A stretch of DNA of 54,275 nt, taken from positions 1-54,275 of the forward strand of contig CAJXYM010000009.1 in the NCBI GenBank assembly GCA_913063045.1. Direction: 5' to 3'. Within the stretch, counting starts at the first letter, position 1; every line of letters begins with the position of its first letter. Made by a program: the position numbers and the translations under genes. The notes beneath the pieces were generated by a model. It worked only from the letters and a program-made list of their open reading frames with translations, was not told where the DNA came from and did not search any database. This DNA is from an uncultured Flavobacteriales bacterium (GTDB lineage: Bacteria > Bacteroidota > Bacteroidia > Flavobacteriales > BACL11). This document shows, piece by piece, positions 16,540 through 54,275 of the stretch.

Positions 16540-17415
16540 GTGAAAAAGTGTTTTATTTGTGATTGTAAAGAATTGCTGGTTGTTTTCAATGGAAAAATAA
16601 GAAGTGGAGCATTTGGCAGAATGACAACTGAGGATTATAAGGTTTTTGAATGCTTAGGCTGTGGTGTAAAATTTTTGGATAAATTTTTAAACCAAGATTT
16701 TTATACCTCAATTGAGTATAGAGAAAATTATAATGATTCATCAAGTGTTGATACCTATCATCAAATTCATGATAATGGTGAAACTGATAAAGTATATAAA
16801 ATAGGTCTTGATAATTTTAGAAATAAAAAAGTTGCTGACTTTGGAACTGGTGGAGGAACTTTTTTAGATGTTGTTAGTGCAGTTGCAAAAAAAACATTTG
16901 CTATTGAGCCTGCGGGCTTCTTTCATAGTGATTTAAAAGTAAAACACAAAGTGTTTTCATATGGATCTGAACTTGTTCATAGTGGAGAGACTATTGATAT
17001 TGCTACTTCTTTTGATGTTCTGGAGCATGTAGAAAGTCCACTAGATTTTTTAAAGGAAATAAACTCATCACTTATTGATGGTGGTGTAATGTATTTAATG
17101 ACGCCTAATTTTAATGAAATATTAAATGATTTTGGATTAGAAGAGTTTGAAAAATTTAATTATAGAACAGCACATTATTATTATTTTTGTGAAAAATCAA
17201 TTGGAAATTTACTAAAGTTAGCAGGGTTTAAAAACTTTAAAATTAGCTTTCATCATAAATATGATGCTTCTAATTTGTTGTACTGGTTAAAAGATGGAAA
17301 GCCAACTGGAAAAAATAAGTATAATTTTTTTGATAGTGACTTTAATAGCTACTATAAAAATTATTTAATTAGTAAAGGCAAAGCAAGCCACTTGTGGATT
17401 AGAGCTGAAAAGTGA
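16540..17415 (+). CDS. Class I SAM-dependent methyltransferase with N-terminal zinc-binding Cys pairs
   Basis: The 291-residue protein opens with MKKCFICDCKELL and FECLGCGVKFL. These two CxxC pairs are likely a zinc ribbon, followed by a Rossmann-type SAM domain with VADFGTGGGTFLDVV (motif I, about residue 100) and ATSFDVLEHVESP (post-motif region). This architecture is frequent among sugar C- or O-methyltransferases. The start is a GTG, supported by AAGGA eight bases upstream. It ends in a GTGA overlap with the cytidylyltransferase gene. It may methylate the nonulosonic acid or another precursor. The target is not known. Confidence 0.83.
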   Translation: MKKCFICDCKELLVVFNGKIRSGAFGRMTTEDYKVFECLGCGVKFLDKFLNQDFYTSIEYRENYNDSSSVDTYHQIHDNGETDKVYKIGLDNFRNKKVADFGTGGGTFLDVVSAVAKKTFAIEPAGFFHSDLKVKHKVFSYGSELVHSGETIDIATSFDVLEHVESPLDFLKEINSSLIDGGVMYLMTPNFNEILNDFGLEEFEKFNYRTAHYYYFCEKSIGNLLKLAGFKNFKISFHHKYDASNLLYWLKDGKPTGKNKYNFFDSDFNSYYKNYLISKGKASHLWIRAEK

Positions 17416-18107
17416 AAATTTTAGCAATTGTACCTGCAAGATCTGGTTCTAAAGGAATTAAAAATAAAAATATCATTGATGTATGCTCTAAGCCATTAAT
17501 AGCATATTCTATTGAACATGGTGTCGCGTTAAAATCATTAGATTTAGTGGACGAAGTTATTGTTTCAACTGATTCTCAAGAAATTGCAGATATATCAATA
17601 AAATATGGTGCTAGTGTGCCATTTATTCGACCAAAAAAAATTGCTAATGACAATGCGAAGTCTATTGATTTTTATTTTCATGCGATTAGTTTTTATGAAA
17701 AAAAAAATATTTACTTTGATGCTATATTATTGTTACAACCAACATCGCCTTTAAGACCAATGAGCGCACTTAAAAACTCAATAGAACTGTTTATTAACTC
17801 TAAATCTGATAGCTTAATTAGCGTTTATCAAGAGGATTATATTAACAAGTTGGTGATGTATACGAGCATTGATGGGGAGGTTCTCATACCAAGAGATATA
17901 AACCATAATAAGGGTGTAAGGCGACAAGAGCACGGAAAAACTTTAATTAGAAATGGTGCTATCTATATAACAAAAGTGGATTACATTAAAAAAAATAAAA
18001 GGATTATTTCCGAAAAACCACTATTTGTGAAAATGAATAGAAATGACTCGATAAATATTGATACTGAAGAGGATTTAGATTTAGTTCGAAGGCTATTATG
18101 CAAATAG
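17412..18107 (+). CDS. neuA: Acylneuraminate (nonulosonate) cytidylyltransferase, NeuA family
   Basis: This 231-residue protein begins MKILAIVPARSGSKGIKNKN, the CMP-NeuAc synthetase signature (nucleotide-binding RSGSKG). It continues with SIEHGVALKSL, VSTDSQEIADIS, LLLQPTSPLRP and RNGAIYITK, and ends with INIDTEEDLDL. It activates the NeuB product as a CMP-sugar for transfer. The GTG start overlaps the preceding TGA as GTGA. neuB, neuC and neuA thus lie within one run, interrupted only by the methyltransferase. It overlaps the following dehydrogenase gene by 10 nt. Confidence 0.92.
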   Translation: MKILAIVPARSGSKGIKNKNIIDVCSKPLIAYSIEHGVALKSLDLVDEVIVSTDSQEIADISIKYGASVPFIRPKKIANDNAKSIDFYFHAISFYEKKNIYFDAILLLQPTSPLRPMSALKNSIELFINSKSDSLISVYQEDYINKLVMYTSIDGEVLIPRDINHNKGVRRQEHGKTLIRNGAIYITKVDYIKKNKRIISEKPLFVKMNRNDSINIDTEEDLDLVRRLLCK

Positions 18108-26320: not shown

Positions 26321-27763
26321 ATGTATTCTTGGTTTAAAAAATTATTGGAAGATAGTGTTGTATATGGTTTAACTCCCGTTTTATCAAAAGCGATGTCTTT
26401 TCTTCTACTACCAGTATATACGCGATATCTTTCACCAAGTGAATATGGAATTCTAGCAATACTTTTAGCAATTTCGATTATCAGTAGTACGATATGTAGC
26501 CATGGAATGGCTAGTGGAGTTTTTAAATTTCATTCTTATAAAAGAATAGATACTTCTCTTAATCCCGTAAATTTACCATCTTTATACAAATCAACAGCAG
26601 TAATAGCAACGCTATTAGTGTCTTTAATAGTGCTGCTTATATTGGTTTTTTACCGTCAAACTTTGTCCTTGCAATTTTTTGATGGTACTGACATAGTTAA
26701 TGAATTTACAGCTATTTTGTTGTATTCTTTTTTATCTTGCAATTTATCAGTGCATTTTGCTATATTTAGAGCTAAAAGAGAAAAAAAGAGGGTTGTAACA
26801 CTAAATTTTGTAAGAATGATTGTGTCAATACTGGTAACTTTATTAATGTTAATATACTATGGTCAGGGATTATATGGCTATATTATTGGTTTAGTTTCAG
26901 GTGAATTAATTGTGTTAATAATATTAAGCCCAGTTATATCAAAACTTTTTAGAGAAGGGTTTAATTTAAAGAAATATTTTGAATTAGTTAAGTACTCTAT
27001 TTCATTTGTGCCGCATAGACTTATGGGGATAGTAATGATGTATGTTGGTATATACTTCATCAACATACATGCTGGGACAAATGAGCTAGGTTTGTATTCA
27101 ATTGCAGAAAAAATAACACTTCCAATGATGATAATAATTGGCTCGGTACAGCAAGCATGGGCTACAATTAAATTTGAAATTATTGCAGCTGAAAAAAAAC
27201 CGTTTGAAGTAATTTCGAAAATCTTGTCTGGCTATATTCTAATTTTGATTGTTCTTTATGTTTTAGTTTCATTGTGGGGTGGTTTTTTACTTCCGATACT
27301 AGTAAGTGATGTTTTTAGGGAAGCTTCTTATTACATCCCATTTTTAGCTCTTATTCATATATCTAATGCTGTTTATTTTATTTATGCATCCGCTATTGAA
27401 GTCGGAAAATCTACGTATCTGCTTCCATTATCTAGCCTTTCTGGACTAGTGACAACAACTTTTTTATCTTATAAATTCATACCCATTTATGGTCCAGCTG
27501 CTGCTGCTTTGGCTTTATCATTTGGATGGATTACTATGGCATTAGTAGTCAACCTAATCTCTAAGAGGCAGATAAAAATTAAACTTAAATATCTAGTAGT
27601 GCTTTTTTCAACCTTAGTGCTTATATTGGTTTTTAAATATGTATCCCCCCATGATGTTTATCTTTCTATTATTGGAACACTAATATTTTTATTGTTATTC
27701 ATAGTTTTTTTTAGAAGAGATATAGTTTATTTGTTAAGATTATTAAATGAAAAAAATACTTAA
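26321..27763 (+). CDS. wzx: Wzx-type lipid-linked oligosaccharide flippase
   Basis: This 480-residue protein consists almost entirely of hydrophobic segments (about 12-14 helices). It begins MYSWFKKLLEDSVVYGLTPV, then SKAMSFLLLPVYTRYLSPSEYG, the N-terminal signature of the polysaccharide transporter (PST/MATE-like) family. Conserved charged residues between helices, such as FRAKREKKR, are also present. It would move undecaprenyl-linked repeat units to the periplasm. The coding end overlaps the next gene by 17 nt. A second flippase of a different subtype is encoded at 42168-43715. Confidence 0.9.
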   Translation: MYSWFKKLLEDSVVYGLTPVLSKAMSFLLLPVYTRYLSPSEYGILAILLAISIISSTICSHGMASGVFKFHSYKRIDTSLNPVNLPSLYKSTAVIATLLVSLIVLLILVFYRQTLSLQFFDGTDIVNEFTAILLYSFLSCNLSVHFAIFRAKREKKRVVTLNFVRMIVSILVTLLMLIYYGQGLYGYIIGLVSGELIVLIILSPVISKLFREGFNLKKYFELVKYSISFVPHRLMGIVMMYVGIYFINIHAGTNELGLYSIAEKITLPMMIIIGSVQQAWATIKFEIIAAEKKPFEVISKILSGYILILIVLYVLVSLWGGFLLPILVSDVFREASYYIPFLALIHISNAVYFIYASAIEVGKSTYLLPLSSLSGLVTTTFLSYKFIPIYGPAAAALALSFGWITMALVVNLISKRQIKIKLKYLVVLFSTLVLILVFKYVSPHDVYLSIIGTLIFLLLFIVFFRRDIVYLLRLLNEKNT

Positions 27764-31503: not shown

Positions 31504-33933
31504 ATGATAGGTAGCCTTTCATTTACTAGAGATATCCTATCACTTATTACTATTTTAGGAGTCATATTTGGGAATTCAATTCTCTATGGTTCGCAAACAC
31601 TATCATTTTTCATATTCGCTTCATCTATAGCCATATTTTCAATATATATATTTATTAATATTGAAAAAATTATAAGGAAGCCTTTCCCTCCTCACTTCTC
31701 GCTCTTTATAGTATTAATTTTCTTCATTGTTATTTTTCAACACATAGTCCTCGCAAACAACTTCATCGTAAATGAATTGATCAGAGTTTTATATCTATTT
31801 GCAGGAAGTTTAATTATTGCTTCAATATATTATGCGGAAAATTCTGTTAAACGCCTTGCTCAATTAATCCTTTTTTCTATACTAATACTCAATATAGTAA
31901 CAATTCTTGAATTTTTTATTCAATACGAAGGATCTTTTCAAGTTGAAGTGGATGGTGTATTTAAATCGGGTGATCTAAGCTCTCTTGGCCCTTCACTTAC
32001 ATCTGATTCAATTTTAGTTTCTTTATTGCTTCTGTTCTATATTGTTGAAAGAGATATTAAAAATAAAAATATTGCCAATATTCTTTATTTAATATCAATT
32101 CTGGGAATTTTATTGACATCCTCGAGGTTTGGAATCGCTTTATCTTTATTTCTTTATTTAATTTTCTTATTGAAATACAGGCTAACCTTTTTAAATATTT
32201 TTTTATCAATATTTGTTATTTATATATTTTTCGTAAGCCAAGCTCAAATACTAAAGGTGAGATTTTCACAGCCTATTGCTGGGTATCAGTCGGATGAAAA
32301 AGTTGCTTCTCAATTGGATGAAAAAGTTGCTTCTCAATTGGATGAGATAGAGGTAGTAAGAATTCCTATAAATAATTTAGAAAAAATAATCAAACAAGAT
32401 TTACTCTTTTTTGACGAAATTTCAACTACCATCTCTAATGAGATTGACGAGGGTTTAACTATCGTTCTGGAAGCTATGGATTCTCAAAATATAATAGCTG
32501 ATGAAGAAACAATTATAAATTTAGTTGACCGAGTAATTAGACTTAATCATAACAGTTTAATGCAAATTGATCCAAGTAGTTTAAAAAATTCTATTTCATC
32601 TTCTTTAAATGAGCAACTTTATAATGAGTCTATAAATGTCCCTTATAATCTTATTAATATAGATCCTGAAGTCACTCCAACTATCATTAATTCAACTTCT
32701 GCACATAACATGGATAATACTAACTTGATTGAATCTGATGCAAAAATTAAGCTAGCTGCTCAACAAGAAATTAAGCTAGCTGCTCAACAAGAAATTAAGC
32801 TAGCTGCTCAACAAGAAATTAAGCTAGCTGCTCAACAACTAACTCTAGAGAAAAGTCTTGTTAACGCATGGTCTAATAATAATAATTTTCCTTATGAAGA
32901 TTATTCTAGTAGTGGGTTAAGTATTAATTCAGCTATTAATACTACTGACTTAGGTTCTATTAATACTACCTGGTTGCCAATACTGGGAGAGATTTATACT
33001 GTTTCATTCGATTTAACTTTAAATAGTGGTTTGCCACCCAGGATTTATGTTGAATCATCAGAATCATGGGGTGAAGGAAGAGTGTTTGAAACAAAACCGG
33101 GCATTCAGTCATATACTTGGAAGGCCGAGGCTTCAGAAGTAATGTATTTGAATTTTTCAGTAACTGAAGACGTGCCAACTAATTTCTCTGTAGAAGACTT
33201 TAAACTATATAAAGGGGGTAATCTAGATCTCTTTAATGCAAGAGTTCAACAGGAAGCTAAGCTAGCTGCTCAACAAGAAAAAATTATTGATCAAGCTATT
33301 ATGTCTCCTCAAAAACGAAAAATTATGAACCAAGTTAATTTTAGACTAGAGGAGGCCTATAGAAGCGTAATTGATATGCACGGAAACCCTTTAGAAGAGA
33401 AAAGGATGATGAATTTGATTAGTCAGAGTCTTTCTCAAATTCAAAATTATAACTTAGATCCAAATTTACCAGAAATTGATGGAAGAGTTGTGCACTGGTT
33501 AGTCGCAATCGATATGTTTTTAAACAGCCCAATGAAAGGAGTAGGCTCAAGGGATAAATTTAGTGAAAATTTTTATTTAATGCAATATAAGTACAATACC
33601 AGAAAAGCAGTCTTTTGGACTTCAAATGGATATAAAAAATTTGTCACTAAAAGATATGGAACTAATCGAAGCCCACATAGCACTTTATTTGGCCAGTTAG
33701 CAATATTTGGTATTTCTTCAATATTTTGGTCAGTCTTTCCCCTTTATTACATATATTGCTGGAGCAAGAAAACTCGCAAACATATTCTGGATATTGAGCT
33801 TATTTCCTTTGGGCTAATTCTATTCTTATTAGTTTTAAGAGAGATTCATACTCACAAATTTTTCCTAATAGTTATGATTCTACTTATGTTTATCTTTTAT
33901 GAAAATCGCAAAAAAGACTATAGTATTAATTAA
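31504..33933 (+). CDS. Wzy/O-antigen-ligase-like protein with a giant repeat- and CBM-containing loop
   Basis: This 809-residue protein has about nine N-terminal transmembrane helices (residues 1-258), including LTSSRFGIALSLFLYLIFLL. A loop of roughly 460 residues follows. After it come the catalytic-type RSPHSTLFGQLAIFGISS (about 720) and two or three final helices, the outline of Wzy_C/WaaL polymerases and ligases. The loop contains two DEKVASQL repeats (from about 263), an acidic helical stretch, four IKLAAQQE repeats (about 414-446), a jelly-roll-like domain (about 447-575; KSLVNAWSNNNNFPYEDYSS, EIYTVSFDLTLNSG, NFSVEDFKLYKGG) similar to CBM4/9-type modules, and a fifth KLAAQQE. Usual loops are about 100 residues. 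It would polymerise or transfer the glycan in the periplasm. Confidence 0.82.
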   Translation: MIGSLSFTRDILSLITILGVIFGNSILYGSQTLSFFIFASSIAIFSIYIFINIEKIIRKPFPPHFSLFIVLIFFIVIFQHIVLANNFIVNELIRVLYLFAGSLIIASIYYAENSVKRLAQLILFSILILNIVTILEFFIQYEGSFQVEVDGVFKSGDLSSLGPSLTSDSILVSLLLLFYIVERDIKNKNIANILYLISILGILLTSSRFGIALSLFLYLIFLLKYRLTFLNIFLSIFVIYIFFVSQAQILKVRFSQPIAGYQSDEKVASQLDEKVASQLDEIEVVRIPINNLEKIIKQDLLFFDEISTTISNEIDEGLTIVLEAMDSQNIIADEETIINLVDRVIRLNHNSLMQIDPSSLKNSISSSLNEQLYNESINVPYNLINIDPEVTPTIINSTSAHNMDNTNLIESDAKIKLAAQQEIKLAAQQEIKLAAQQEIKLAAQQLTLEKSLVNAWSNNNNFPYEDYSSSGLSINSAINTTDLGSINTTWLPILGEIYTVSFDLTLNSGLPPRIYVESSESWGEGRVFETKPGIQSYTWKAEASEVMYLNFSVTEDVPTNFSVEDFKLYKGGNLDLFNARVQQEAKLAAQQEKIIDQAIMSPQKRKIMNQVNFRLEEAYRSVIDMHGNPLEEKRMMNLISQSLSQIQNYNLDPNLPEIDGRVVHWLVAIDMFLNSPMKGVGSRDKFSENFYLMQYKYNTRKAVFWTSNGYKKFVTKRYGTNRSPHSTLFGQLAIFGISSIFWSVFPLYYIYCWSKKTRKHILDIELISFGLILFLLVLREIHTHKFFLIVMILLMFIFYENRKKDYSIN
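32292..32339 (+). repeat. Two identical 24-bp tandem repeats inside the polymerase-like gene
   Basis: Two exact in-frame copies of a 24-bp unit starting GGATGAAAAAG encode DEKVASQL twice. They lie just after the last N-terminal helix, at the beginning of the large loop. Perfect identity between copies suggests recent slippage or expansion, and 24 bp keeps the frame. Confidence 0.92.
32744..32839 (+). repeat. Four 24-bp tandem repeats inside the polymerase-like gene
   Basis: Four consecutive 24-bp units beginning AAATTAAGCTAGC encode IKLAAQQE-type octads. The first three are identical and the fourth differs at its last base (32839). A fifth, slightly diverged copy lies 414 bp downstream at 33254-33277. 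The octad is Ala/Gln/Lys/Glu-rich and could form a helical stalk. Confidence 0.93.
33254..33277 (+). repeat. Dispersed fifth copy of the 24-bp repeat
   Basis: This copy encodes AKLAAQQE and differs from the tandem unit at two bases near its start. It sits immediately behind the carbohydrate-binding-like domain, so that domain is flanked on both sides by copies of the same repeat. Confidence 0.85.
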
Positions 33934-34156: not shown

Positions 34157-34816
34157 ATGGAGTTAAATTCTTTAAATAGCATGATAAATAGCAATCCATT
34201 TATTATAGAAGTAACTGGGATATCTGGAATTGGTAAGACTACATTTATTAATAACCTTGAGGGAAAATATATTCCTTATTGCTCTATTAAAAGTAGGCAC
34301 AAATTTTTTGCTTTTATTAGTTTTTTTCTTTTAAAAATAGTTTCAATTAGACAAATTATTTGGATGTTTAATTGTAGTATCTCTTCCAATCATATTTCAA
34401 TAATATTTAAACTAAATATTTTTAGAAATTTGCTGCTAAAGTTTATTAGATTTGAAGCAGCATTTCATGCTTCAGCCTCTTTATCAAGAATTGTATTAGT
34501 TGATGAAGGAGTTTCACATATCCCCTTTTTAATACAAGATAGTAAAAATCTAGATAAAAATCTAGATTATTTTTTTACAGAGTTCAAAGCATTTCTTAAT
34601 CAGATTAGCTTGGTTGTAATTGATAATGATATAAGTGATGAAGTAATTTGTAATAGATTATTACTCAGAGGTCATAAAAGACTTGCTGGATACTCCACGA
34701 AAGAATTTAAATTATTTATTAAAAATAATAGAAGTACGTTAAATAAAATAATCAATGAAGAGAGTAGGTTTCAGAAAGTTTCTACTATAAAATCACTTAA
34801 TGCTAGAAATTTATAA
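34157..34816 (+). CDS. P-loop kinase-like protein (thymidylate-kinase-like fold)
   Basis: The 219-residue protein carries a Walker A motif in EVTGISGIGKTTFINNL (about residues 16-32). IVLVDEGVSHIPFLIQ is a DE-type Walker B-like segment, and VICNRLLLRGHKRLAGYS is a candidate lid region rich in Arg. This pattern is typical of the nucleoside/nucleotide kinase-like family, though the substrate is not recognisable. It overlaps by 17 nt a second, larger P-loop gene, so the pair likely acts in one process. A small-molecule or sugar kinase linked to polysaccharide assembly is one possibility. dTMP kinase itself is unlikely given the sequence and location. Confidence 0.65.
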   Translation: MELNSLNSMINSNPFIIEVTGISGIGKTTFINNLEGKYIPYCSIKSRHKFFAFISFFLLKIVSIRQIIWMFNCSISSNHISIIFKLNIFRNLLLKFIRFEAAFHASASLSRIVLVDEGVSHIPFLIQDSKNLDKNLDYFFTEFKAFLNQISLVVIDNDISDEVICNRLLLRGHKRLAGYSTKEFKLFIKNNRSTLNKIINEESRFQKVSTIKSLNARNL

Positions 34817-36179
34817 TCAACTTTTTACACAACTTAATGCAGATAAGATAAGTTATTGTTCTTGGAAGAATAATCACTTGCTACTTAGGGCATGCAATGG
34901 GGATGGCGATATTGACTTGCTTGTTAGTCCCGCTGAACACAGTAAATTCAATCGTATATTGCGTAAGCTTGGCTTTATTATGGTGAAAAGTGCAATCTCA
35001 GAGTATCCATCTATTCAGCATTACTATTGTTATGATGCTTTAACAGATCATTTTGGTCATCTACATGTTTATTTTAAACTTATAACTGGAGATAGCCATT
35101 TAAAAAATTATAGAATTCCATTTGAAAGAAAAGTTCTAGCTAATTCTATTTTTAATGAAAGTGGCGTTAAAGAAGCTCACCCAAATCACCAGCTTGAGTT
35201 ATATAAAATTAGAAACCATATAAAGGCATCATCTTTTTTAGGGCGTTTCTTGTTAAAACGAGAAGAAGAGGATTATCAGCTTGAATTAAATTATATTTTG
35301 TCAAATATCGATAAAAATATCTCTCATGTTGAGCTTTTATTGACTAATTTTTCTAAGAAAATACCTAATAAGCCAATTATTTCTAGTTTGATCTATGCAA
35401 TTCTTAATTTATGGATTTGGAAAAGAGATGTAGGTATTCTAGAAAGAGTTTCTCAAATATACCTTCGTATTTTAAATAAATTTTTTTTCCATCGAAAAAA
35501 GACAATTAATGGGGCAATAATATCTATAGTTGGGCTAGATGGTTCTGGAAAAAGTAGTTCTGTAAATGAATTAAATAAATGGCTAGTTAAAGAGTTTACC
35601 TCTAAGAAATTTCACTTTGGTCGGCCCCCACCGATATTTATCACTTATCCATTTAGACTTTTATTAAAACTACGTAAGTTATTTAAAAATAGCAATTCAG
35701 TTGCATCGCTTAAAGATACATCTAACTCTTATATGAGCCTACTTTCTAAAATTCGATACTTAGTGTTGGCGTTTGAACGTGCATCACTAATAAAAAAAGC
35801 ACATAGATTTGCATTAAATGGCGGTATTGCCATTCTTGATCGTTATCCCTCAAATAATTTAGGAAAAATGGATAGCAAAAGAATTTCTGACGAAAAGTCT
35901 TTTATTGGAATAATTGAGTCTAACTTGTATGATCGTATGAAAATTACAGATGTTTTAATTAAGTTAAATGTTGATGTTGAGGAAGCAGTTGTACGAAACA
36001 AATTAAGAAATAAAAAAGATAAGGAGACTGATAATGAAATTAGAATTCGTTTTGAAATTAACGCTAAATTAGATTATGAGGCATTAATTGAGTATGAAGT
36101 AGATTCAATGCAGTCTATAAATGAGGTGCATCAGCAAATTAAAAACTTAATTTGGGGTTATATCATTGCCTCTAATTAA
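34800..36179 (+). CDS. Two-domain protein: nucleotidyltransferase-like N-terminus fused to thymidylate-kinase-like P-loop domain
   Basis: The 459-residue protein opens with KISYCSWKNNHLL and NGDGDIDLLVSPAEHSKF (about 35), a DxD metal-binding pattern of minimal nucleotidyltransferases, followed by GHLHVYFKL. After a linker, the C-terminal domain begins AIISIVGLDGSGKSSSVNEL (Walker A about 244). It includes AILDRYPSNNLGKMD, equivalent to the DR(Y/F) motif of thymidylate kinases, and a basic RNKLRNKKDKE lid. Similar fusions occur in polysaccharide loci, but no activity is established to my knowledge. It overlaps its neighbours by 17 and 14 nt. Phosphorylation or nucleotidylation of a sugar or glycan is inferred only. 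Confidence 0.68.
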   Translation: MLEIYNQLFTQLNADKISYCSWKNNHLLLRACNGDGDIDLLVSPAEHSKFNRILRKLGFIMVKSAISEYPSIQHYYCYDALTDHFGHLHVYFKLITGDSHLKNYRIPFERKVLANSIFNESGVKEAHPNHQLELYKIRNHIKASSFLGRFLLKREEEDYQLELNYILSNIDKNISHVELLLTNFSKKIPNKPIISSLIYAILNLWIWKRDVGILERVSQIYLRILNKFFFHRKKTINGAIISIVGLDGSGKSSSVNELNKWLVKEFTSKKFHFGRPPPIFITYPFRLLLKLRKLFKNSNSVASLKDTSNSYMSLLSKIRYLVLAFERASLIKKAHRFALNGGIAILDRYPSNNLGKMDSKRISDEKSFIGIIESNLYDRMKITDVLIKLNVDVEEAVVRNKLRNKKDKETDNEIRIRFEINAKLDYEALIEYEVDSMQSINEVHQQIKNLIWGYIIASN

Positions 36180-37320: not shown

Positions 37321-38464
37321 ATTCATACCTTTTTCAATTCCAGATATTGATGACTCTGAAATTAATGAAGTTGTTGACACCCTTCGAACTGGTTGGTTAA
37401 CGACAGGTCCTAAAGTCAAGTTATTTGAATCAAACTTTGAACAGTTTATTGGTCCTGAAGTCCAAGCTGCTTCGGTCAATTCAGCAACAGCTGGGCTTCA
37501 TTTATCTCTTGAGGCTCTTGGTATTGGAGTAGGAGATGAAGTAATTCTTCCTAGCCTTACCTTTACAGCTACAGCGGAAGTTGTGAGTTATTTAAATGCT
37601 GATGTAAAGTTAGTGGACATAGATTCTAAAACCTTAAATATAGATATTAATAAAATTCGACTCGCAATTACTCCAAAGACGAAGGCTATTATAGTAGTGC
37701 ATTATGCTGGATTAAGTTGTAATATGGATGAAGTATTGTTGTTGGCGAAGGAGTTTCAATTAAAAGTAGTTGAAGATGCTGCGCATGCTTTGCCGTCATT
37801 TTATAAAGCAAGTATTATTGGATCTTTGCATTCTGATGCAACAGTATTTAGCTTTTATGCTAATAAAACAATGACTACTGGAGAAGGTGGAATGGTTGTT
37901 TCTCGGAATAGCGATTTGATAAAGAGAATTAAAATAATGCGTCTGCATGGTATTGATAGAGATGTATTTGATCGATTTCAATCTAAGAAACCTACTTGGT
38001 TTTATGAGGTAGTTGCCCCTGGGTTTAAATATAATATGACTGATATTGCAGCTGCAATAGGAATTCATCAGCTAAAAAAGCTACCTAAATTTTTAGAAAG
38101 AAGACAGTTTTTGGTCGAGCGTTATCTTACTAAATTAGTTGATTTGCCTTTGATTTTACCGCCTGACGATATTCATGGTGGAGGACATGCCTGGCATTTA
38201 TTTGTAATTCGGATCAATACCGATGCTAAAATTAATCGAGATGATTTGATTCAATTTCTAAGCGATAAAGGCGTTGGAACAAGTGTTCATTATATTCCGT
38301 TGCATCGGCAGCCTTTTTGGAAAAATAAATATAATTTAACAAATAGTATGTTTCCAGAGGCCGACAAAGCTTATTTATCCATGGTGAGCATACCTTTATA
38401 TACTGCTATGACTAATGAGCAGCAGGATTATATTATTAGAACTTTACATGAGGCTTTTGAGTGA
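37313..38464 (+). CDS. DegT/DnrJ/EryC1/StrS-family aminotransferase (PglE-like)
   Basis: This 383-residue PLP enzyme begins MPKFIPFSIPDIDDSEINEV and has RTGWLTTGPKVKLFE, AASVNSATAGLHLSLEAL, ILPSLTFTATAEVVSY, VEDAAHALPSF and the PLP lysine in FSFYANKTMTTGEGGM. It matches UDP-4-keto-6-deoxy-HexNAc aminotransferases such as PglE/PseC/WbpE-type enzymes. It overlaps the preceding gene by 8 nt and the sugar transferase gene by GTGA. The dehydratase gene at 39060 would make its keto-sugar substrate, yielding UDP-4-amino-4,6-dideoxy-HexNAc (inference). Confidence 0.92.
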   Translation: MPKFIPFSIPDIDDSEINEVVDTLRTGWLTTGPKVKLFESNFEQFIGPEVQAASVNSATAGLHLSLEALGIGVGDEVILPSLTFTATAEVVSYLNADVKLVDIDSKTLNIDINKIRLAITPKTKAIIVVHYAGLSCNMDEVLLLAKEFQLKVVEDAAHALPSFYKASIIGSLHSDATVFSFYANKTMTTGEGGMVVSRNSDLIKRIKIMRLHGIDRDVFDRFQSKKPTWFYEVVAPGFKYNMTDIAAAIGIHQLKKLPKFLERRQFLVERYLTKLVDLPLILPPDDIHGGGHAWHLFVIRINTDAKINRDDLIQFLSDKGVGTSVHYIPLHRQPFWKNKYNLTNSMFPEADKAYLSMVSIPLYTAMTNEQQDYIIRTLHEAFE

Positions 38465-39054
38465 TTAAGCGATTGTTAGATTTATTAGTTGCTTTTACTG
38501 GGATAATTTTTTTAAGCCCATTTTTTATATTATTTGCTTTATGGATTAAATTAGATTCTCACGGGCCAATATTTTTTCGACAAGTTCGAGTAGGGTTAAA
38601 TGGAGAAAATTTTAAAATACATAAGTTTAGATCTATGTACATAAACTCTGAAAGTAAAGGAAAATTAACAGTCAGAGATGATGTCAGAATTACAAGGTCT
38701 GGTAAATTTATTCGGCGATTTAAGGTTGATGAATTACCTCAGTTATTTGATGTTTTAATTGGTAGGATGAGTCTAGTAGGTCCTAGGCCTGAAGTCCAAG
38801 AGTTTATTAATGAATACCCTCCAGATATTAGAAAAAAAATTCTGTCTATAAGACCAGGCATTACTGATATGGCTTCGATTGAAATGATAGATGAGAATGA
38901 AATTTTAGGAAATTTTAAAGATTTCAAAAAAGCATATATAGAAACTATATTGCCTACCAAACAAAAGCTCTATCTTGACTATGTTGAGAATCATAATATT
39001 TGGATGGATATTCATATTATTTTATTAACTATTAAAAAAGTTTTTTCCCGATAA
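38461..39054 (+). CDS. Undecaprenyl-phosphate initiating sugar phosphotransferase (PglC-size)
   Basis: This 197-residue monotopic-type transferase has one N-terminal hydrophobic segment (LLDLLVAFTGIIFLSPFFIL). It has the family blocks GPIFFRQVRVGLNG, FKIHKFRSM, VRDDVRITRSGKFIRRFKVDELPQLFDVL and MSLVGPRPEVQEF with the catalytic Asp-Glu pair. The length is that of PglC, lacking the extra helices of WcaJ/WbaP. It loads the first phosphosugar on undecaprenyl phosphate at the inner membrane. The start is a GTG overlapping the aminotransferase stop (GTGA). It ends 5 nt before the dehydratase gene. Confidence 0.95.
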   Translation: MIKRLLDLLVAFTGIIFLSPFFILFALWIKLDSHGPIFFRQVRVGLNGENFKIHKFRSMYINSESKGKLTVRDDVRITRSGKFIRRFKVDELPQLFDVLIGRMSLVGPRPEVQEFINEYPPDIRKKILSIRPGITDMASIEMIDENEILGNFKDFKKAYIETILPTKQKLYLDYVENHNIWMDIHIILLTIKKVFSR

Positions 39055-42167: not shown

Positions 42168-43715
42168 TTAATCTTTCAAGGGATTATTAGGCCTTATTAA
42201 ACCAAAATAAATTATATAAATAACAACTGACTCAAATAGTATTAATAGAAAAATACTATTAACAAAACTAAAGTTAATATTTAATAAGAGTAATAATAAC
42301 CCTAAAATTATTGTAAGTAAAATAATAAAAATCTTTAAATTACTTTTATTTAGTGGTAATAATTTAAATTCTCTATACAAGTAAATTCCTAGAAAAAAAT
42401 CTGAAATAATTATTACTAAATAAAAAAATCCAACAACACCAAGTACACCAAAAAAAGTAGCAATAAACTCTGAAAAGAGCAATAAAGTAGTTAAAGATAA
42501 AGAGATAATAACTATTTCAACATTTTGTTTTCCTTTCATTTGAGTAACTAACGAAGTTGGACCAATTATTAAAGTTAAGGAAAGATAAGCAAGCATTATC
42601 ATTACAAATTCGCTGTTTTCTTTATATTCGCCACCAAACAAAAAATTCATTATATATTCAGAAAAAATAGCTAAAAATATAATCAAAGGATAAGAGCAAA
42701 CAACTGTCCATTTTGCTAGCAATTTATAAGTTTCTAAAAACATATCTGTTTTTTCTTCAATTGCCATCTTAGAAATAAAAGAGCTGTTGATAGCAGATTT
42801 TATCAATAGTCCAATAAATAGTAATTTTAATGAAACAGAAAAGTACGCAACAGACTCAATACTTATATAATCATGTAATAAAAATATTGCCAATCTATCT
42901 CTAAGGATCCAAACTACAATTAATAAAGTTGAATATGCAGCAAAAACTTTGATATTTTTTGAAACCTCTTTTTCTTTATTGGAAGAAAATTCTAGAGTAT
43001 TTATACTTTTTCTAATATAAGAATAAAATATTAAACAACCTAGAAATACTGAAAACATAATTCCTCCAAGATATACGTATAAAACATTCATTAGAGAAAC
43101 ATCATTTAATGATATTAGATAAATAAGGCCAATTAAAGCAAAGATATTTGGATAAACTTCATTAACAAAATTGAACATTTTTGTGTTTTCAGCTGCTCTA
43201 AATGTGACTGATAATAAGTACATACATGATGTGAACAAGATAAGTGCTAGAACAATTGCAATATCCCAAGATACTCCAGTGATATCTTCAAAAAAGAATC
43301 CTAAGGACTTGGATGGGTAAAAAAAGATAACAAGAAAAACCAATAAGTACAGCATTAGCATTAATAAAACTACCTTTAATAATAATAAAAGGGCATTTTT
43401 ATGATCACCAATATTTACAAATTTTGGAAAATATCTTTCTATAACACTTCTTGCTCCACCAGATACAAAATTAGTTATGATAACAACAGCGCCAAGAACT
43501 AAAGCAAATTGAGCATAGTCATAAACTGACAATATTTTAATAATTATGATATCAATAATAAATTTCATTAATGAGCCAAAAGACCCATAAATAAGGGTTT
43601 TAAAGGCATTTTGCGCAAGTTTTTTATTTTTATTATTAAGTGGATTCTCAGAAAAAAACTTAGATACTTTATTATTGCTAGCTAAAATCACTTTTCTTAT
43701 TGAAGAAAAACTCAT
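42168..43715 (-). CDS. Second polysaccharide flippase (Wzx/MATE-like)
   Basis: This 515-residue protein is largely hydrophobic with about 12-14 helices. It begins with a basic cytoplasmic tail and then AFKTLIYGSFGSLMKFIIDI, ISVYDYAQFALVLGAV and GARSVIERYFPKF, the PST-family N-terminal pattern. It is not closely similar to the flippase encoded at 26321, by inspection. It shares an ATGA overlap with the upstream deacetylase-like gene. A second flippase in the same window implies either another glycan or another lipid-linked substrate. Confidence 0.87.
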   Translation of the reverse strand: MSFSSIRKVILASNNKVSKFFSENPLNNKNKKLAQNAFKTLIYGSFGSLMKFIIDIIIIKILSVYDYAQFALVLGAVVIITNFVSGGARSVIERYFPKFVNIGDHKNALLLLLKVVLLMLMLYLLVFLVIFFYPSKSLGFFFEDITGVSWDIAIVLALILFTSCMYLLSVTFRAAENTKMFNFVNEVYPNIFALIGLIYLISLNDVSLMNVLYVYLGGIMFSVFLGCLIFYSYIRKSINTLEFSSNKEKEVSKNIKVFAAYSTLLIVVWILRDRLAIFLLHDYISIESVAYFSVSLKLLFIGLLIKSAINSSFISKMAIEEKTDMFLETYKLLAKWTVVCSYPLIIFLAIFSEYIMNFLFGGEYKENSEFVMIMLAYLSLTLIIGPTSLVTQMKGKQNVEIVIISLSLTTLLLFSEFIATFFGVLGVVGFFYLVIIISDFFLGIYLYREFKLLPLNKSNLKIFIILLTIILGLLLLLLNINFSFVNSIFLLILFESVVIYIIYFGLIRPNNPLKD

Positions 43716-48845: not shown

Positions 48846-49634
48846 TTATTCAGCAGTTTGAGTTTCAGGATGATTGCTGTAATTATCGCCATATAAATCT
48901 TTTAAAATTTCAAATGTGAGATCTCCTCCTCCACCCTCAAAAATAATCTTTCCAGCTGAAATTCCAAGAAGTCTATCAGCAAATTTCTTAGCTAAATCAA
49001 CTTGATGAAGACTTACAACTACAGTGATAGACTTTTCAATACATATATCATTTAAGAGCGAAAGTATTTTTACTGAAATTGCAGGATCAAGACTTGCTAC
49101 TGGCTCATCTGCTAATATAATATCTGGCTCTTGAGCAAAAGCTCGCGCAATACCTACACGTTGCATCTCGCCTCCACTAAGATTTGAGACTCGTTCTAGT
49201 GATTTATTTAAAAGACCAACTCTATCAAGAGCCTCTAATGCAATAATTTTATCTTTTTTAGACCACGGCATTAAGCATTGTAAATTACCATGATGAGCGA
49301 CCCTACCAAGTAAAACATTATGAAGTGCAGATTGTCTTCCAATTAGTTGATGTTGTTGAAATATCATAGCAGTTCGTCTTTGATGAGAGCGCCATGATTT
49401 TTTATCAGACAACTTACCATGTTTTTTAGTTGAAATTGAACCAGTGGATAAAGGAACAATACCATTTAAAGTTCTTAACATAGTAGATTTACCAGCTCCA
49501 GAGGGGCCAATTAAAACTGTAAGCTGTCCATCATAAATTTCAATATCACTTGCTTGCATCCCAATTACACCATTTGGGTATTGCACACTTGCATTTTTTG
49601 CACTTAAAAAAATTATTGGCTTTATTGTATTCAT
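48846..49634 (-). CDS. phnC: Phosphonate-type ABC transporter ATP-binding protein (PhnC)
   Basis: This 262-residue ABC ATPase has Walker A in TVLIGPSGAGKSTMLRTL, a Q-loop in MIFQQHQLIGRQSALHNVLL (the HQLIGR and LLGR segments are typical of PhnC), the signature LSGGEMQRVGIARAF, Walker B in DIILADEPVASLDP and the H-loop in VVVSLHQVDLAK. It energises uptake with PhnE and the binding protein PhnD. It is the last gene of the minus-strand operon phnD-phnE-sat-phnC, 35 bp after sat. The substrate (phosphonate, phosphite or another small oxyanion) is not determined by this subunit. Confidence 0.93.
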   Translation of the reverse strand: MNTIKPIIFLSAKNASVQYPNGVIGMQASDIEIYDGQLTVLIGPSGAGKSTMLRTLNGIVPLSTGSISTKKHGKLSDKKSWRSHQRRTAMIFQQHQLIGRQSALHNVLLGRVAHHGNLQCLMPWSKKDKIIALEALDRVGLLNKSLERVSNLSGGEMQRVGIARAFAQEPDIILADEPVASLDPAISVKILSLLNDICIEKSITVVVSLHQVDLAKKFADRLLGISAGKIIFEGGGGDLTFEILKDLYGDNYSNHPETQTAE

Positions 49635-49669
49635 TATTTGTTATATTAAAGTTTATTAATAATAGTAAA

Positions 49670-50740
49670 TCATTTCACAAACATATTGCTTGAGTATATC
49701 GCTTCAACAACCTCAACGCGCATTAGATGTTGAGGTGGCCTAAGTCCACTAGAAAGCAAAGAACGAATTTCTGTTCCACTAACCTTTTCAATAGAATCTG
49801 GATCACTTGAAATGTGATCACATTCATTCTTATTAGTTATGCTATTACAGACCCAGCAAAAATATGGCTCTTTATATTTTATAATTTTTATTCCTAATGC
49901 ATCTTCATATTTTTTGCATAAGTCCTGAGAATCATACTTACCATAATAACTATTAACTCCGGCATGATCTCTTCCAATAATGATGTGGGTACATCCATAG
50001 TTTCGACGTATTAATGCGTGAAATAAGGCTTCACGTGGTCCAGCATATCGGCCAGATATTGTTAATGCACTTAATACAACTCTATTCAAAGGATAATACT
50101 TAGATATTAAGGCCTGATAGCCATTAATTACAGACATTGGTAGAAAATCTCCTGGTTTCTTCTGACCTAATATCGGATGGATTAATAATCCATCATAGGA
50201 TTCTAGCGCCTTTTTCTGTAACCATTCATGAGCACAATGTGGAGGATTTCGAGTATGAAATGCAGCTACTGTAGACCATTTTTTTTCTTTGAATATATAT
50301 CTTGTTTGACTAGGAGTTAACTCATACTGTGAAAGTTTGTGAATTAGCTTTTCCTTTATTGTTACTCTACCACCAATAAAAATTTCTTTAGTTTTATAAA
50401 AGGCATTAACTCCAGGATGCATAGAATCATCCGTGCCATATATTTTTTTTGCACATTTTTTTTTATCACAAGAAAATATGCTTTCGACTAGAATCTCACC
50501 AATTAAATTATTATCAAATAGTAATTTAACTTTAGAATTTATTTTAAGTTTATCAGCATCTTCTTTTGATAAATCAAGGAAGATGGGAATGCTGAAGATA
50601 TTTCCATCAGGAAGTGTATATTTATCTATTACGCTATAAAACTCTTTTTCAGTCATAAAGCCACTAAGTGGATGATATGAACCATTGGTAATTTTATCTA
50701 CCTCAAAAAATTGATTTTGGCTTAATAATAATTCCTTCAT
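49670..50740 (-). CDS. sat: Sulfate adenylyltransferase / ATP sulfurylase
   Basis: This 356-residue homo-oligomeric-type ATP sulfurylase has GSYHPLSGFMTEKEFYSVID, YGTDDSMHPGV, the active-site block HTRNPPHCAHEWLQ, GRYAGPREALFHALIRRNYG, GRDHAG, the cysteine set CWVC-x7-C-x-H and KVSGTEIRSLL. It makes adenosine-5'-phosphosulfate from ATP and sulfate, or the reverse in sulfur oxidisers. The active-site motif starts with His where well-studied enzymes (yeast Q195) have Gln contacting sulfate. It lies between phnE (18 bp) and phnC (35 bp), inside a transporter operon. The start ATG has no long alternative. Confidence 0.92.
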   Translation of the reverse strand: MKELLLSQNQFFEVDKITNGSYHPLSGFMTEKEFYSVIDKYTLPDGNIFSIPIFLDLSKEDADKLKINSKVKLLFDNNLIGEILVESIFSCDKKKCAKKIYGTDDSMHPGVNAFYKTKEIFIGGRVTIKEKLIHKLSQYELTPSQTRYIFKEKKWSTVAAFHTRNPPHCAHEWLQKKALESYDGLLIHPILGQKKPGDFLPMSVINGYQALISKYYPLNRVVLSALTISGRYAGPREALFHALIRRNYGCTHIIIGRDHAGVNSYYGKYDSQDLCKKYEDALGIKIIKYKEPYFCWVCNSITNKNECDHISSDPDSIEKVSGTEIRSLLSSGLRPPQHLMRVEVVEAIYSSNMFVK

Positions 50741-50758
50741 CTTAATTAAATTTAGAAA

Positions 50759-51565
50759 TTATTTTAATCGATTACGCAATGATGATCCTGATAAATCAAT
50801 TGCAGTTACCATCACTAAGATTATAATAAGAATTGCAGAAACTTCATCATATCTCATCAGTCGCAAAGATCCAATTAATTCAGCACCTATTCCACCTGCA
50901 CCTACCATCCCCATAACAGTTGAAGCCCTAAAATTATATTCCCATCTATAAATACAAAGATCAGCCCCCTGTGAATAAAGCTGTGGCAAAATTGCATATC
51001 TAATAACCTGAAGACTGGATGCTCCAGTTGCTTGAGCAGCTTCAATAGGATGTATATCAAGGTGCTCTATTTGCTCAGCAAAAAACTTCCCCATCATTCC
51101 TGCAGAGTGAAGACCTAAAGCCAGCACTCCAGGCAGGGCTCCAAAGCCAACTGCAGCAACGAAAATTATCCCCATAATCAACTCAGGAATAGCTCGTAAA
51201 AAATTAAGGATTACTCTACTTGCTAAATATATAATTCTATGAGGAGCTGTATTTTTAGCTGCCAATAACCCTAATGGAAAAGATAATATAAGAGCAAATG
51301 CTGTACCAGCGATACTCATAACAAAAGTATCTAGTAATGGTCGCATCCATTTGCTTATCTCATTAAAGTTTGGTGGAATCATCTCTTTAAACAAAATACC
51401 AATTGACGGTATTCCTTCAAGCATTCTTTCTTTATCAAAAAAATCAACCAAGTAGAAGCAAGCTAAAATAATCCCAACAAATCCAATAGTTTGAAAACTT
51501 TTTTTAACAAGTGATTTTCTTTCAGTTGCTAATATGTTTTGGATAATCGAGTTAGATTCTTTCAT
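50759..51565 (-). CDS. phnE: Phosphonate-type ABC transporter permease (PhnE)
   Basis: This permease begins at ATG 51565 (MKESNSIIQNILATER) and is 268 residues. A TTG at 51574 would add three residues but is less likely. It has about six helices, with the inner-membrane coupling block EAAQATGASSLQVIRYAILP (EAA loop) and PELIMGIIFVAAVGFGALPG. The typical PhnE end region YRWEYNFRASTVMGMVGAGG is present too. It forms the channel for the PhnD-bound substrate. A 178-bp gap separates it from phnD upstream, so a separate promoter or a processed leader is possible. Confidence 0.94.
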   Translation of the reverse strand: MKESNSIIQNILATERKSLVKKSFQTIGFVGIILACFYLVDFFDKERMLEGIPSIGILFKEMIPPNFNEISKWMRPLLDTFVMSIAGTAFALILSFPLGLLAAKNTAPHRIIYLASRVILNFLRAIPELIMGIIFVAAVGFGALPGVLALGLHSAGMMGKFFAEQIEHLDIHPIEAAQATGASSLQVIRYAILPQLYSQGADLCIYRWEYNFRASTVMGMVGAGGIGAELIGSLRLMRYDEVSAILIIILVMVTAIDLSGSSLRNRLK

Positions 51566-51743
51566 ATTTTCCAATTTTTAAAATAGAGTTATACACAATT
51601 ACTGTTAACTTCAAACATAAGTTTAGACATTAATAATATTTAAATAAAAACAATATAAATACTGAAATTGTACTTATGATTATGAACTAGTGTAACTAAA
51701 TTAATTAATGATTGACTCACAGCTAACTTGAATAGTTAAAAGT

Positions 51744-52586
51744 TTAATCTATACTTAATAATGTTCTTGTTGTTCTAACAACGTCGTAGTCAGCATCAGT
51801 AACGGGCATAAATCCATCAGCTTTAAGAGGTTTAGTAATTTCAGGGTCATCTAAATCATAAAACGCTTGCTTGATTTTTTCCTTTAATTCAGAATCTAAG
51901 CTTGATTGCATTGTCCAAGGATAATTTGGAAATGGGTTAGATATAGCAATGACCTGAACTTTATCTAAGCTAATTAATCCTCTTTCAACTAAATGTTCAA
52001 AAATTTTCTTGCTTAATCCACCTGCATCAGCATTTCCATTTTGAACATTTAAAGCAACTGCATCATGAGAGCCCAAATAAACAGCTTTATAGTCATCAAT
52101 ATCTAATTTAGCATTTAAAAGTAAATGAGCTCTTGGAATAAGATGACTTGATGTTGAGGCTGGATCGCCATAAGCCATAGTCTTGCCTCTGACATCATAA
52201 ATATTACTAATCATACTGTCATTATTAACAATAATAACACCGTGATACATCATTGAACCTTTTTTCATTTGAGCAGCAAAAGCTTCAATCTCAGATCTTT
52301 CTTTTGCCATAACATAAGATAATGCTCCAAAGTATGCGAGCTCTAGTCTGCCAAACCTCATTGCTTCAATCATTGAAGAGTAGTCAGTTGTTACCACTAA
52401 TTCAATTTTCTTATCTAGACGATCTTCTAAGTAAAGCTGTAATTTTTTATTTTGCTTAATTAATTCTGATGCATTCTCATCAGGCAGAATAGCTACTCGT
52501 AAAACATCAGGGTTAGTTTTGTTCGCTCCATAAATACTGCTTGATATTAAAGTGCAGATTGTGAAAAAAAGTATTGAAATTTTCAT
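51744..52586 (-). CDS. phnD: Phosphonate-type periplasmic substrate-binding protein (PhnD)
   Basis: The 280-residue protein has a signal peptide (MKISILFFTICTLISSSIYG). The PhnD family core follows: LRVAILPDENASELIKQNKK, LVVTTDYSSMIEAMRFGRLE, LAYFGALSYVMAKER, GKTMAYGDPASTSSHLIPRA and AVALNVQNGNADAGGLSKKI. The DPASTSSHL loop binds the oxyanion in relatives. Ligands known for the family include phosphonates, phosphite and other oxyanions. The start codon touches a 30-bp inverted repeat, so expression could be controlled at this point. Confidence 0.93.
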   Translation of the reverse strand: MKISILFFTICTLISSSIYGANKTNPDVLRVAILPDENASELIKQNKKLQLYLEDRLDKKIELVVTTDYSSMIEAMRFGRLELAYFGALSYVMAKERSEIEAFAAQMKKGSMMYHGVIIVNNDSMISNIYDVRGKTMAYGDPASTSSHLIPRAHLLLNAKLDIDDYKAVYLGSHDAVALNVQNGNADAGGLSKKIFEHLVERGLISLDKVQVIAISNPFPNYPWTMQSSLDSELKEKIKQAFYDLDDPEITKPLKADGFMPVTDADYDVVRTTRTLLSID

Positions 52587-52982: not shown

Positions 52983-52984
52983 TC
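52688..52984 (-). pseudogene. Decayed reading frame directly behind glmS
   Basis: From inside the glmS stop codon one frame reads DFARTSLPILIPCLEFNIEI, then NGLMYNPNKAIRDKVFPVKI and YYTFEELQ. It meets three stops close together (TAG TAG AAT TAA, 52816-52805), and in the same frame continues LLVQKDTFYEKLEKYFNKYL and ILYKLELKFKCVF to a stop at 52688-52690. The protein-like composition on both sides of clustered stops suggests a decaying gene whose 5' part is missing at the glmS boundary. The family was not recognised. Chance cannot be ruled out for a 99-codon stretch. Confidence 0.35.
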
Positions 52985-54275
52985 ATTCCACTGTAACTGA
53001 CTTTGCTAAATTTCTTGGTTTATCAACGTCAGTTCCTTTTATCAAAGCAACATGATAGCTAAGAAGTTGTAATGGAATTGTAAAAATTATTGGGGCTGTT
53101 ATTCGTCCTAAGTTTGAAGTGATTGGAATAACTTCCATCGCCTTCATTGATTGTACTTTTGAATTTTCATCTTCAAAAACAATCATCTGAGATCCTCTAG
53201 ACTTAACTTCTTGTAAGTTTGACTTAAGTTTACTTAACAGTTCATCATTTGGTGCAATTGCAATGACAGGCATATTTTTATCAATTAGTGCGATTGGCCC
53301 ATGTTTTAATTCTCCTGCTGGATAAGCTTCAGCATGAATATAACTAATTTCTTTTAACTTAAGCGCCCCTTCCAAAGCTATAGCATGCATTGTCCCTCTT
53401 CCTAGAAAGAGGGCACTACTTGTATTCTTAAAGCGAGTTGCTAGTTTCTTAATTTGAATTTCTTGAAGTAATGCCTCATTAATAAGTCCTGGAAGTCTTT
53501 TTAAGCCATCAATAATTTCACACTCTTGCTTTGTGTTGATTGTTTTTTTTAATTTACCAATAGAGCACGTTAATAAAGCTAGAGCTACTAGCTGGGTAGT
53601 AAAAGCTTTTGTGCTTGCCACTCCAATTTCAGGTCCAGCATGAGTTAAAAAAGATAAATCAGAGAGTCTTGTAAGGCTAGATTCTGGAGAATTAGTTATA
53701 CAGAGAGATATAGTATTACTGTTTATTTTTTTTGCGGCCTTTAGGGCTTCTACTGTGTCAGCAGTTTCTCCACTTTGTGAAAGAGTTAACAATAGAGTGC
53801 CATCTAATATGATGGGCCGACGATATCGGTATTCGCTTGCTACTTCAACACTACATGTTATTTTTGCTATATCTTCAAGCCAATACTTGGCTACCAAACC
53901 AGCATGATAACTAGTGCCACAAGCAACAATTTGTACTTGTTTAATTTTATGAAATATTTGTTCAGCTTTAAATCCAAAAGCTGAAATTAAAACAGAATTA
54001 GTTGTTATACGTGATTCCAGTGTGTCCCTAATAGCTTGTGGCTGCTCAAAAATTTCTTTTTGCATAAAATGATTATAATTACCTAGGTCGACTTGACCTG
54101 CTTTGAGCTTTGAAGTCTTAATTGGGCGGTCAACCAAGTTACCATCTAAATCAAAAATAGTGATTTTGTCAATTTTTATTTCAGCAATATCACCATCTTC
54201 TAGAAAAATAAATTTATTAGTTACAGATAGAAGTGCCATTTGATCTGATGCAATATAATTCCCATTTTTTCCAAT
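52983..54275 (-). CDS. glmS: Glutamine--fructose-6-phosphate aminotransferase (GlmS), N-terminus beyond window
   Basis: The coding frame runs through the right edge; residues before the internal Met at 54239 read IGKNGNYIASDQ, the end of the glutaminase domain. Thus the ATG at 54239 is not the start. The visible part has QKEIFEQPQAIRDTLE, the SIS isomerase domains with VACGTSYHAGLVAKYWLE, TLSQSGETADTVEALKAAK and GVASTKAFTTQLVAL, and the typical C-terminal KGTDVDKPRNLAKSVTVE. It makes glucosamine-6-phosphate, the entry to UDP-GlcNAc used by the amino-sugar genes in this window. The N-terminal glutaminase domain with its catalytic Cys is outside. Confidence 0.96.
   Translation of the reverse strand: MGKNGNYIASDQMALLSVTNKFIFLEDGDIAEIKIDKITIFDLDGNLVDRPIKTSKLKAGQVDLGNYNHFMQKEIFEQPQAIRDTLESRITTNSVLISAFGFKAEQIFHKIKQVQIVACGTSYHAGLVAKYWLEDIAKITCSVEVASEYRYRRPIILDGTLLLTLSQSGETADTVEALKAAKKINSNTISLCITNSPESSLTRLSDLSFLTHAGPEIGVASTKAFTTQLVALALLTCSIGKLKKTINTKQECEIIDGLKRLPGLINEALLQEIQIKKLATRFKNTSSALFLGRGTMHAIALEGALKLKEISYIHAEAYPAGELKHGPIALIDKNMPVIAIAPNDELLSKLKSNLQEVKSRGSQMIVFEDENSKVQSMKAMEVIPITSNLGRITAPIIFTIPLQLLSYHVALIKGTDVDKPRNLAKSVTVE

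Follow-up and report, generated by a model that had tools for sequence, protein, structure and literature searches.

The open reading frame at 31504-33933 (+) of the window, the 54,275-nucleotide stretch of DNA analysed here, encodes a membrane protein that we place in the Wzy_C family/superfamily as a divergent member, and its catalytic loop carries an insertion several hundred residues long. On balance we think that the protein is probably a Wzy polymerase bearing an inserted periplasmic beta-sandwich module on a helical arm, with the module likely engaging either glycan or a partner. This is an unusual domain arrangement within a known enzyme family, for which no relatives have yet been found.

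Family assignment and membrane topology

The frame is uninterrupted from its ATG start through 809 aa, with zero internal stops. Hydropathy resolves 12 membrane segments, nine of them followed, after a gap of ~480 residues, by the remaining three; both helix sets are thus of the normal kind described in an earlier reading made from the sequence alone (the sequence-only reading). A single large loop follows helix 9, towards the C-terminus, which gives the protein the ~10–12-helix topology of the superfamily. The features of the enzyme itself are as follows.

31504..33933 (+), entire gene, Wzy_C-family membrane protein (O-antigen polymerase/ligase superfamily), placed by ORF, profile search and alignment
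31504..32253 (+), N-terminal membrane portion, residues 1-250, nine predicted helices (hydropathy, hhalign)
32125-32127 (+), R208 of the TSSR motif, inside the N-terminal membrane portion (hhalign)
33472..33681 (+), catalytic portion of the periplasmic loop with GR, PMKGVG and PH (profile and alignment)
33484-33486 (+), R661 of the GR motif (alignment)
33676-33678 (+), H725 of the PH motif (alignment)
33682..33900 (+), C-terminal membrane helices, three predicted (hydropathy)

The Pfam Wzy_C profile (PF04932) matched the C-terminal part with an E-value of 4.8e-6 and 26.9 bits, and the full-length protein with 22 bits, both below the curated cut-off of 31.7. The low score is attributed to the insertion, which splits the profile region, and because the cut-off is missed we claim membership only at the superfamily level, from motifs. 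NCBIfam and PDB sequence searches with the 809-aa protein found nothing. We therefore rely on the motifs and on a comparison set of 16 Wzy_C proteins, some from the bin and the others from its relatives. Compared once by hhalign, the core without its insert aligned to this set with an E-value of 5.3e-5 (probability 67%), over a span that takes in the SR motif of the membrane helix (R208), the arginine of the loop (R661) and also PxxGVG. A second alignment with relatives showed the Arg, P, G and G to be invariant and placed H725 on their PHN/PHS histidine, so that R208, R661, P676xxGVG and H725 all have aligned counterparts in the relatives. H725 is the candidate catalytic histidine in RSPHSTLFGQ picked out by the sequence-only reading, whose Wzy/ligase-like identification is likewise borne out by the motifs and the alignment to 16 relatives, with weak Pfam support. 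In a survey of GT-C enzymes, two arginines bind the lipid-donor phosphates and a histidine is proposed to activate the acceptor (PMC10920833). Because the Arg, Arg, PxxGVG and His motifs align, the enzymatic core looks intact.

Size, place and parts of the insertion

In the 16 relatives, 78–93 residues separate the membrane helices flanking the catalytic loop, compared with ~480 here. The loop is thus ~five times the family length, as its earlier description as several times the usual size had implied, and with 78–93 residues taken as normal the excess comes to ~380–400 residues. The spacing of R208 and R661 (453 residues here versus ~75 at the equivalent positions in the relative L005) gives an insertion of ~380 residues by the Arg–Arg measure. 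The insertion sits between the two conserved arginines, just ahead of the second, R661, and its position-specific GC (0.447/0.309/0.211) is as in translated sequence. Its parts are listed below.

32292..32345 (+), array 1 (DEKVASQL), 24-bp units, 2.2 perfect copies (Tandem Repeats Finder, 100% match)
32347..32736 (+), acidic segment, residues 282-411, mostly predicted helical (model of low confidence, pLDDT 44)
32744..32838 (+), array 2 (IKLAAQQE), 24-bp units, 4.0 perfect copies (Tandem Repeats Finder, 100% match)
~residues 406-458 (+), long predicted helix that includes array 2 (repeat finder, models)
32842..33228 (+), predicted beta-sandwich (jelly-roll-like) domain, residues 447-575 (model, Foldseek)
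33254..33279 (approx.) (+), fifth copy (AKLAAQQE), in frame (repeat search)
33280..33471 (+), predicted helical linker back to the enzyme, residues 593-656 (loop model of low confidence)

An internal duplication of two helical parts was considered and rejected, as 157 of 2,000 shuffles score as high.

The 24-bp repeats

Tandem Repeats Finder and a repeat search recovered every copy that the sequence-only reading had located, namely two of DEKVASQL, four of IKLAAQQE and a fifth KLAAQQE. The fifth copy starts 438 nt after the start of copy 4, and array 2 and copy 5 flank the domain. The longest exact run at an offset of 24 is 71 nt; shuffling the gene's codons 2,000 times never gave one above 15, so the repeats are not due to chance. 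They are real and probably recent, since their identity reaches synonymous positions. The same reading had the loop built of such repeats, which overstates their share: they make up ~170 nt of a loop of ~1,440 nt. A match to DUF2345 was rejected because it covers the repeats only.

In a model of the whole loop (pLDDT 44) the repeats again form a single long helix. The hydrophobic moment of the octad repeat peaks at ~90 degrees per residue with almost none at 100, and this calculation showed no stripe of hydrophobic residues at the angles usual for a helix or a coiled coil; a straight or simple amphipathic or coiled-coil stalk is therefore doubtful on these sequence properties. The periodicity bears on the idea that the loop is a molecular ruler, in which the number of repeats in the helical arm sets chain length, by analogy with the coiled coil in WbdD. 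Perfect in-frame repeats lying within a predicted helix between enzyme and domain are what such a ruler would call for, and the WbdD coiled coil is an established O-antigen length ruler (PMC11231755). However, WbdD serves ABC-transporter pathways and separates polymerisation from termination, the octad is not a regular coiled coil, and copy-number variation was not observed. We regard a ruler as quite improbable.

A tandem-repeat scan across the bin (1,369,340 bases, some of its contigs being of other origin) found arrays in ~two dozen ORFs, with 31504-33933 among the cleanest. Others include a 674-aa ORF in which LKIQEA / SNQELLKIQE units form a very long array in frame (L129 3896-4494, contig C34), an in-frame ETPAAE array of 18-bp units at 94% (L104 17549-17810, contig C12) and an in-frame EEKIVLDLGQEVE array of 39-bp units at 93% (L075 18813-18986, contig C4). 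This abundance of in-frame arrays in the bin, together with an insert shared by no relative, would fit a tolerated, non-adaptive expansion made of slippage repeats and a captured, functionless domain. An open frame of ~400 residues with coding-type composition and a foldable domain nevertheless suggests selection, and we hold such an expansion to be distinctly unlikely.

Predicted fold of residues 447-575

AlphaFold2, run without an alignment on residues 438-592, returned a helix (2-23 in model numbering), eight strands and a second helix (137-154), with pLDDT 62 and pTM 0.53. The model supports a helix–sandwich–helix arrangement. Searched with Foldseek against the PDB, it matched CBM-type structures, namely CBM4 (1gui), CBM22 (4xuo) and a porphyran-binding CBM (8xmz), and also a hyaluronan-binding module (4d0q), all at TM-scores of ~0.4. 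Sandwiches other than CBMs, such as Cry domains, GOLD, CUB and TNF-like folds, score alike; TM-scores are mostly 0.3–0.5, and all these matches are at the level of fold, from a single-sequence model of low confidence. Against viral models the matches were phage neck-passage, tail and CenC-like proteins. Sequence searches with the domain gave no Pfam match up to an E-value of 10, hence no CBM family, no significant PHROG and no PDB sequence match. Of the CBM-like jelly-roll that had been proposed, the beta-sandwich thus stands as a prediction: the model, which sets it between two helices, supports a sandwich of the broad class that includes CBMs and does not single out a CBM.

A module of this class might serve purely in protein–protein docking or scaffolding, with a Wzz-like regulator, the flippase or an exporter as its partner and no glycan binding. 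Many of the matched sandwiches (GOLD, CUB, TNF-like) do not bind glycans, and in the enterobacterial common antigen system Wzy is documented to form a complex with Wzz (PMC10030265). Against this, CBM-type folds are prominent among the Foldseek matches, the domain has several aromatic residues (4 Trp and 7 Tyr out of 129) and there is no known partner. A docking role without glycan binding therefore strikes us as unlikely.

Gene cluster context

Two further genes of the cluster bear on whether the protein is a polymerase or a ligase.

26321..27763 (+), Wzx-type flippase (Polysacc_synt), same gene run (profile search, hydropathy)
38461..39054 (+), initiating phosphoglycosyl transferase of the cluster (profile search)

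The protein at 31504-33933, encoded four genes past the flippase, is the sole Wzy-like membrane protein among the window ORFs. Given a flippase and an initiating transferase in the cluster and no other Wzy-like protein, this context makes a polymerase more likely than a ligase. The cluster carries genes of the NeuB, UDP-GlcNAc 2-epimerase and cytidylyltransferase families, and from these nonulosonic-acid genes it appears to make a nonulosonic acid. No terminator gene was seen among the window genes examined, and a PADLOC search gave no match.

Several neighbouring genes are recorded here as observations in their own right. Beside the polymerase gene, at 34157-36179, are two P-loop-like ORFs, one a small NTPase-like protein and the other with weak similarity to thymidylate kinase and nucleotidyltransferase. 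A second flippase-like protein with 14 predicted helices and a weak Polysacc_synt match lies just outside the cluster at 42168-43715 (-), and at 48846-52586 (-) phosphonate ABC transporter-like genes, of which 48846-49634 is PhnC-like by similarity, are interleaved with an ATP sulfurylase gene.

Origin of the contig

The contig is filed in a bin whose lineage looks like Flavobacteriales, judging by its relatives, among them genomes of 0.2–0.6 Mb that resemble insect symbionts. The glmS gene of the window (52983-54239, -) is ~55% identical to gammaproteobacterial glmS and ~46% identical to that of the genus to which the bin is assigned. Proteins of bona fide bin contigs are typically 72–80% identical to a same-genus genome, whereas no protein on this contig reaches 60% against that genome, of which ~47% was sampled. 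For these two reasons the contig is probably misbinned and proteobacterial; transfer of the entire stretch, glmS included, is a less likely alternative. Contig C19, which carries a glmS end at 17368-18024 (L114) that is 94% identical in protein to the window glmS, also looks misbinned.

This apparent misbinning weakens an argument of the sequence-only reading, which had taken the absence of Wzz from the window as a pointer to chain measuring by the loop. That argument carries little weight if the contig belongs to another organism. Wzz-family ORFs are present in the bin, on contigs with Bacteroidota-type genes, as judged from their sequences; we rejected them as evidence on this host, since the contig of the window looks proteobacterial.

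The apparent misbinning also raises the question of an assembly or binning artefact that joined two genes or strains at the repeats. An identical stretch of 23 nt is common to copies 3 and 5 and could mislead short k-mers. The frame, however, holds through every junction, an ordinary short read exceeds the whole array (95 nt) in length, and both halves of the enzyme fit one family by hhalign. We judge an artefactual fusion very improbable.

Search for relatives and precedents

No close relatives of the protein or its insert were found in genomes of the lineage to which the bin is assigned (52 of the family, 396 of the order and 395 of the phylum). One set of weak matches from these searches was read and attributed to chance, and another consists of short stretches with E-values of 0.003–0.009. 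A peptide-pattern search over 85k genome species gave no relatives, nor did viral contigs, phages and plasmids, and the repeat dimer occurs in no other of the 396 genomes and in none of the viral contigs. Given the apparent misbinning of the contig, the searches by lineage probably looked in the wrong phylum, and the missing relatives are weak evidence. Literature searches turned up no Wzy protein that contains a CBM or a large insert. Insertion into the catalytic loop, as opposed to a terminal fusion, was seen neither in the papers searched nor in the relatives inspected, where the long proteins are extended at the C-terminus and have normal loops.

A proposed role for the inserted module

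We propose that the cluster is of the Wzx/Wzy type and serves a surface polysaccharide, that this protein would be its Wzy polymerase, and that the presumably periplasmic catalytic loop of the protein gained a single beta-sandwich domain together with helical segments. This domain would project into the periplasm on a helical arm formed in part by the four identical 8-residue repeats, and would most likely engage the growing or incoming glycan or, less likely, a partner protein. The sequence-only reading had suggested tethering of the growing chain, a processivity clamp or the measuring of chain length, and these are candidate roles. As each repeat is 24 bp, the length of the arm could change without a frameshift, by whole repeats of 8 residues (~12 Angstrom if helical), and the domain could be deleted in frame if array 2 recombined with copy 5.

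Chain-length control in Wzy systems is usually put down to Wzz, a protein of its own. A polymerase with a putative glycan-binding domain inside its catalytic loop would allow acceptor recognition, processivity and chain length to be studied in one protein. A bolder version, with an arm that binds glycan and is tunable in length, the 24-bp repeats fixing how far the domain lies from the active site, is in our view a long shot; if true, slippage at the repeats could let chain length evolve, and recombination between the repeats on either side of the domain could remove it in frame.

Comparison with known systems

The protein shares with the Wzy_C family (PF04932; Wzy polymerases and WaaL ligases, of GT-C type) the helix sets on either side of one large periplasmic loop and the Arg, Arg, PxxGVG and His motifs, and differs from it in the length of that loop, in scoring below the Pfam cut-off and in the insertion between the two arginines. 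Seven Wzy_C proteins with C-terminal TPR-like domains, examined in the 52 family genomes, also carry an extra domain and total 650–780 aa, but theirs is added at the C-terminus and leaves the loop normal, whereas here the addition is inside the loop. One 617-aa Wzy_C frame among the relatives contains masked sequence.

The nearest functional parallels come from other pathways. In WbdD-type terminators a helical spacer sets chain length, and the CBMs of Wzt recognise the O-antigen end (PMC11231755). Both belong to ABC-transporter O-antigens and act on the cytoplasmic side, and the WbdD coiled coil comes with a terminator enzyme; here the octad lacks coiled-coil periodicity and no such enzyme accompanies it among the window genes examined. 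EmbC of Mycobacterium tuberculosis is a GT-C polymerase whose jelly-roll carbohydrate-binding subdomain binds its glycan (PMC3044687). It is of another GT-C family, its domain is C-terminal and binding has been demonstrated, whereas the domain described here is known from a predicted model. The parallels with EmbC and WbdD are analogies and not evidence of homology. Lastly, WadA, a GT25 fused to an O-antigen ligase, is another ligase-superfamily protein built of several modules (PMC9938171, PMC10920833), although its cytoplasmic glycosyltransferase is fused at the N-terminus, while the module of the present protein is inserted in the catalytic loop.
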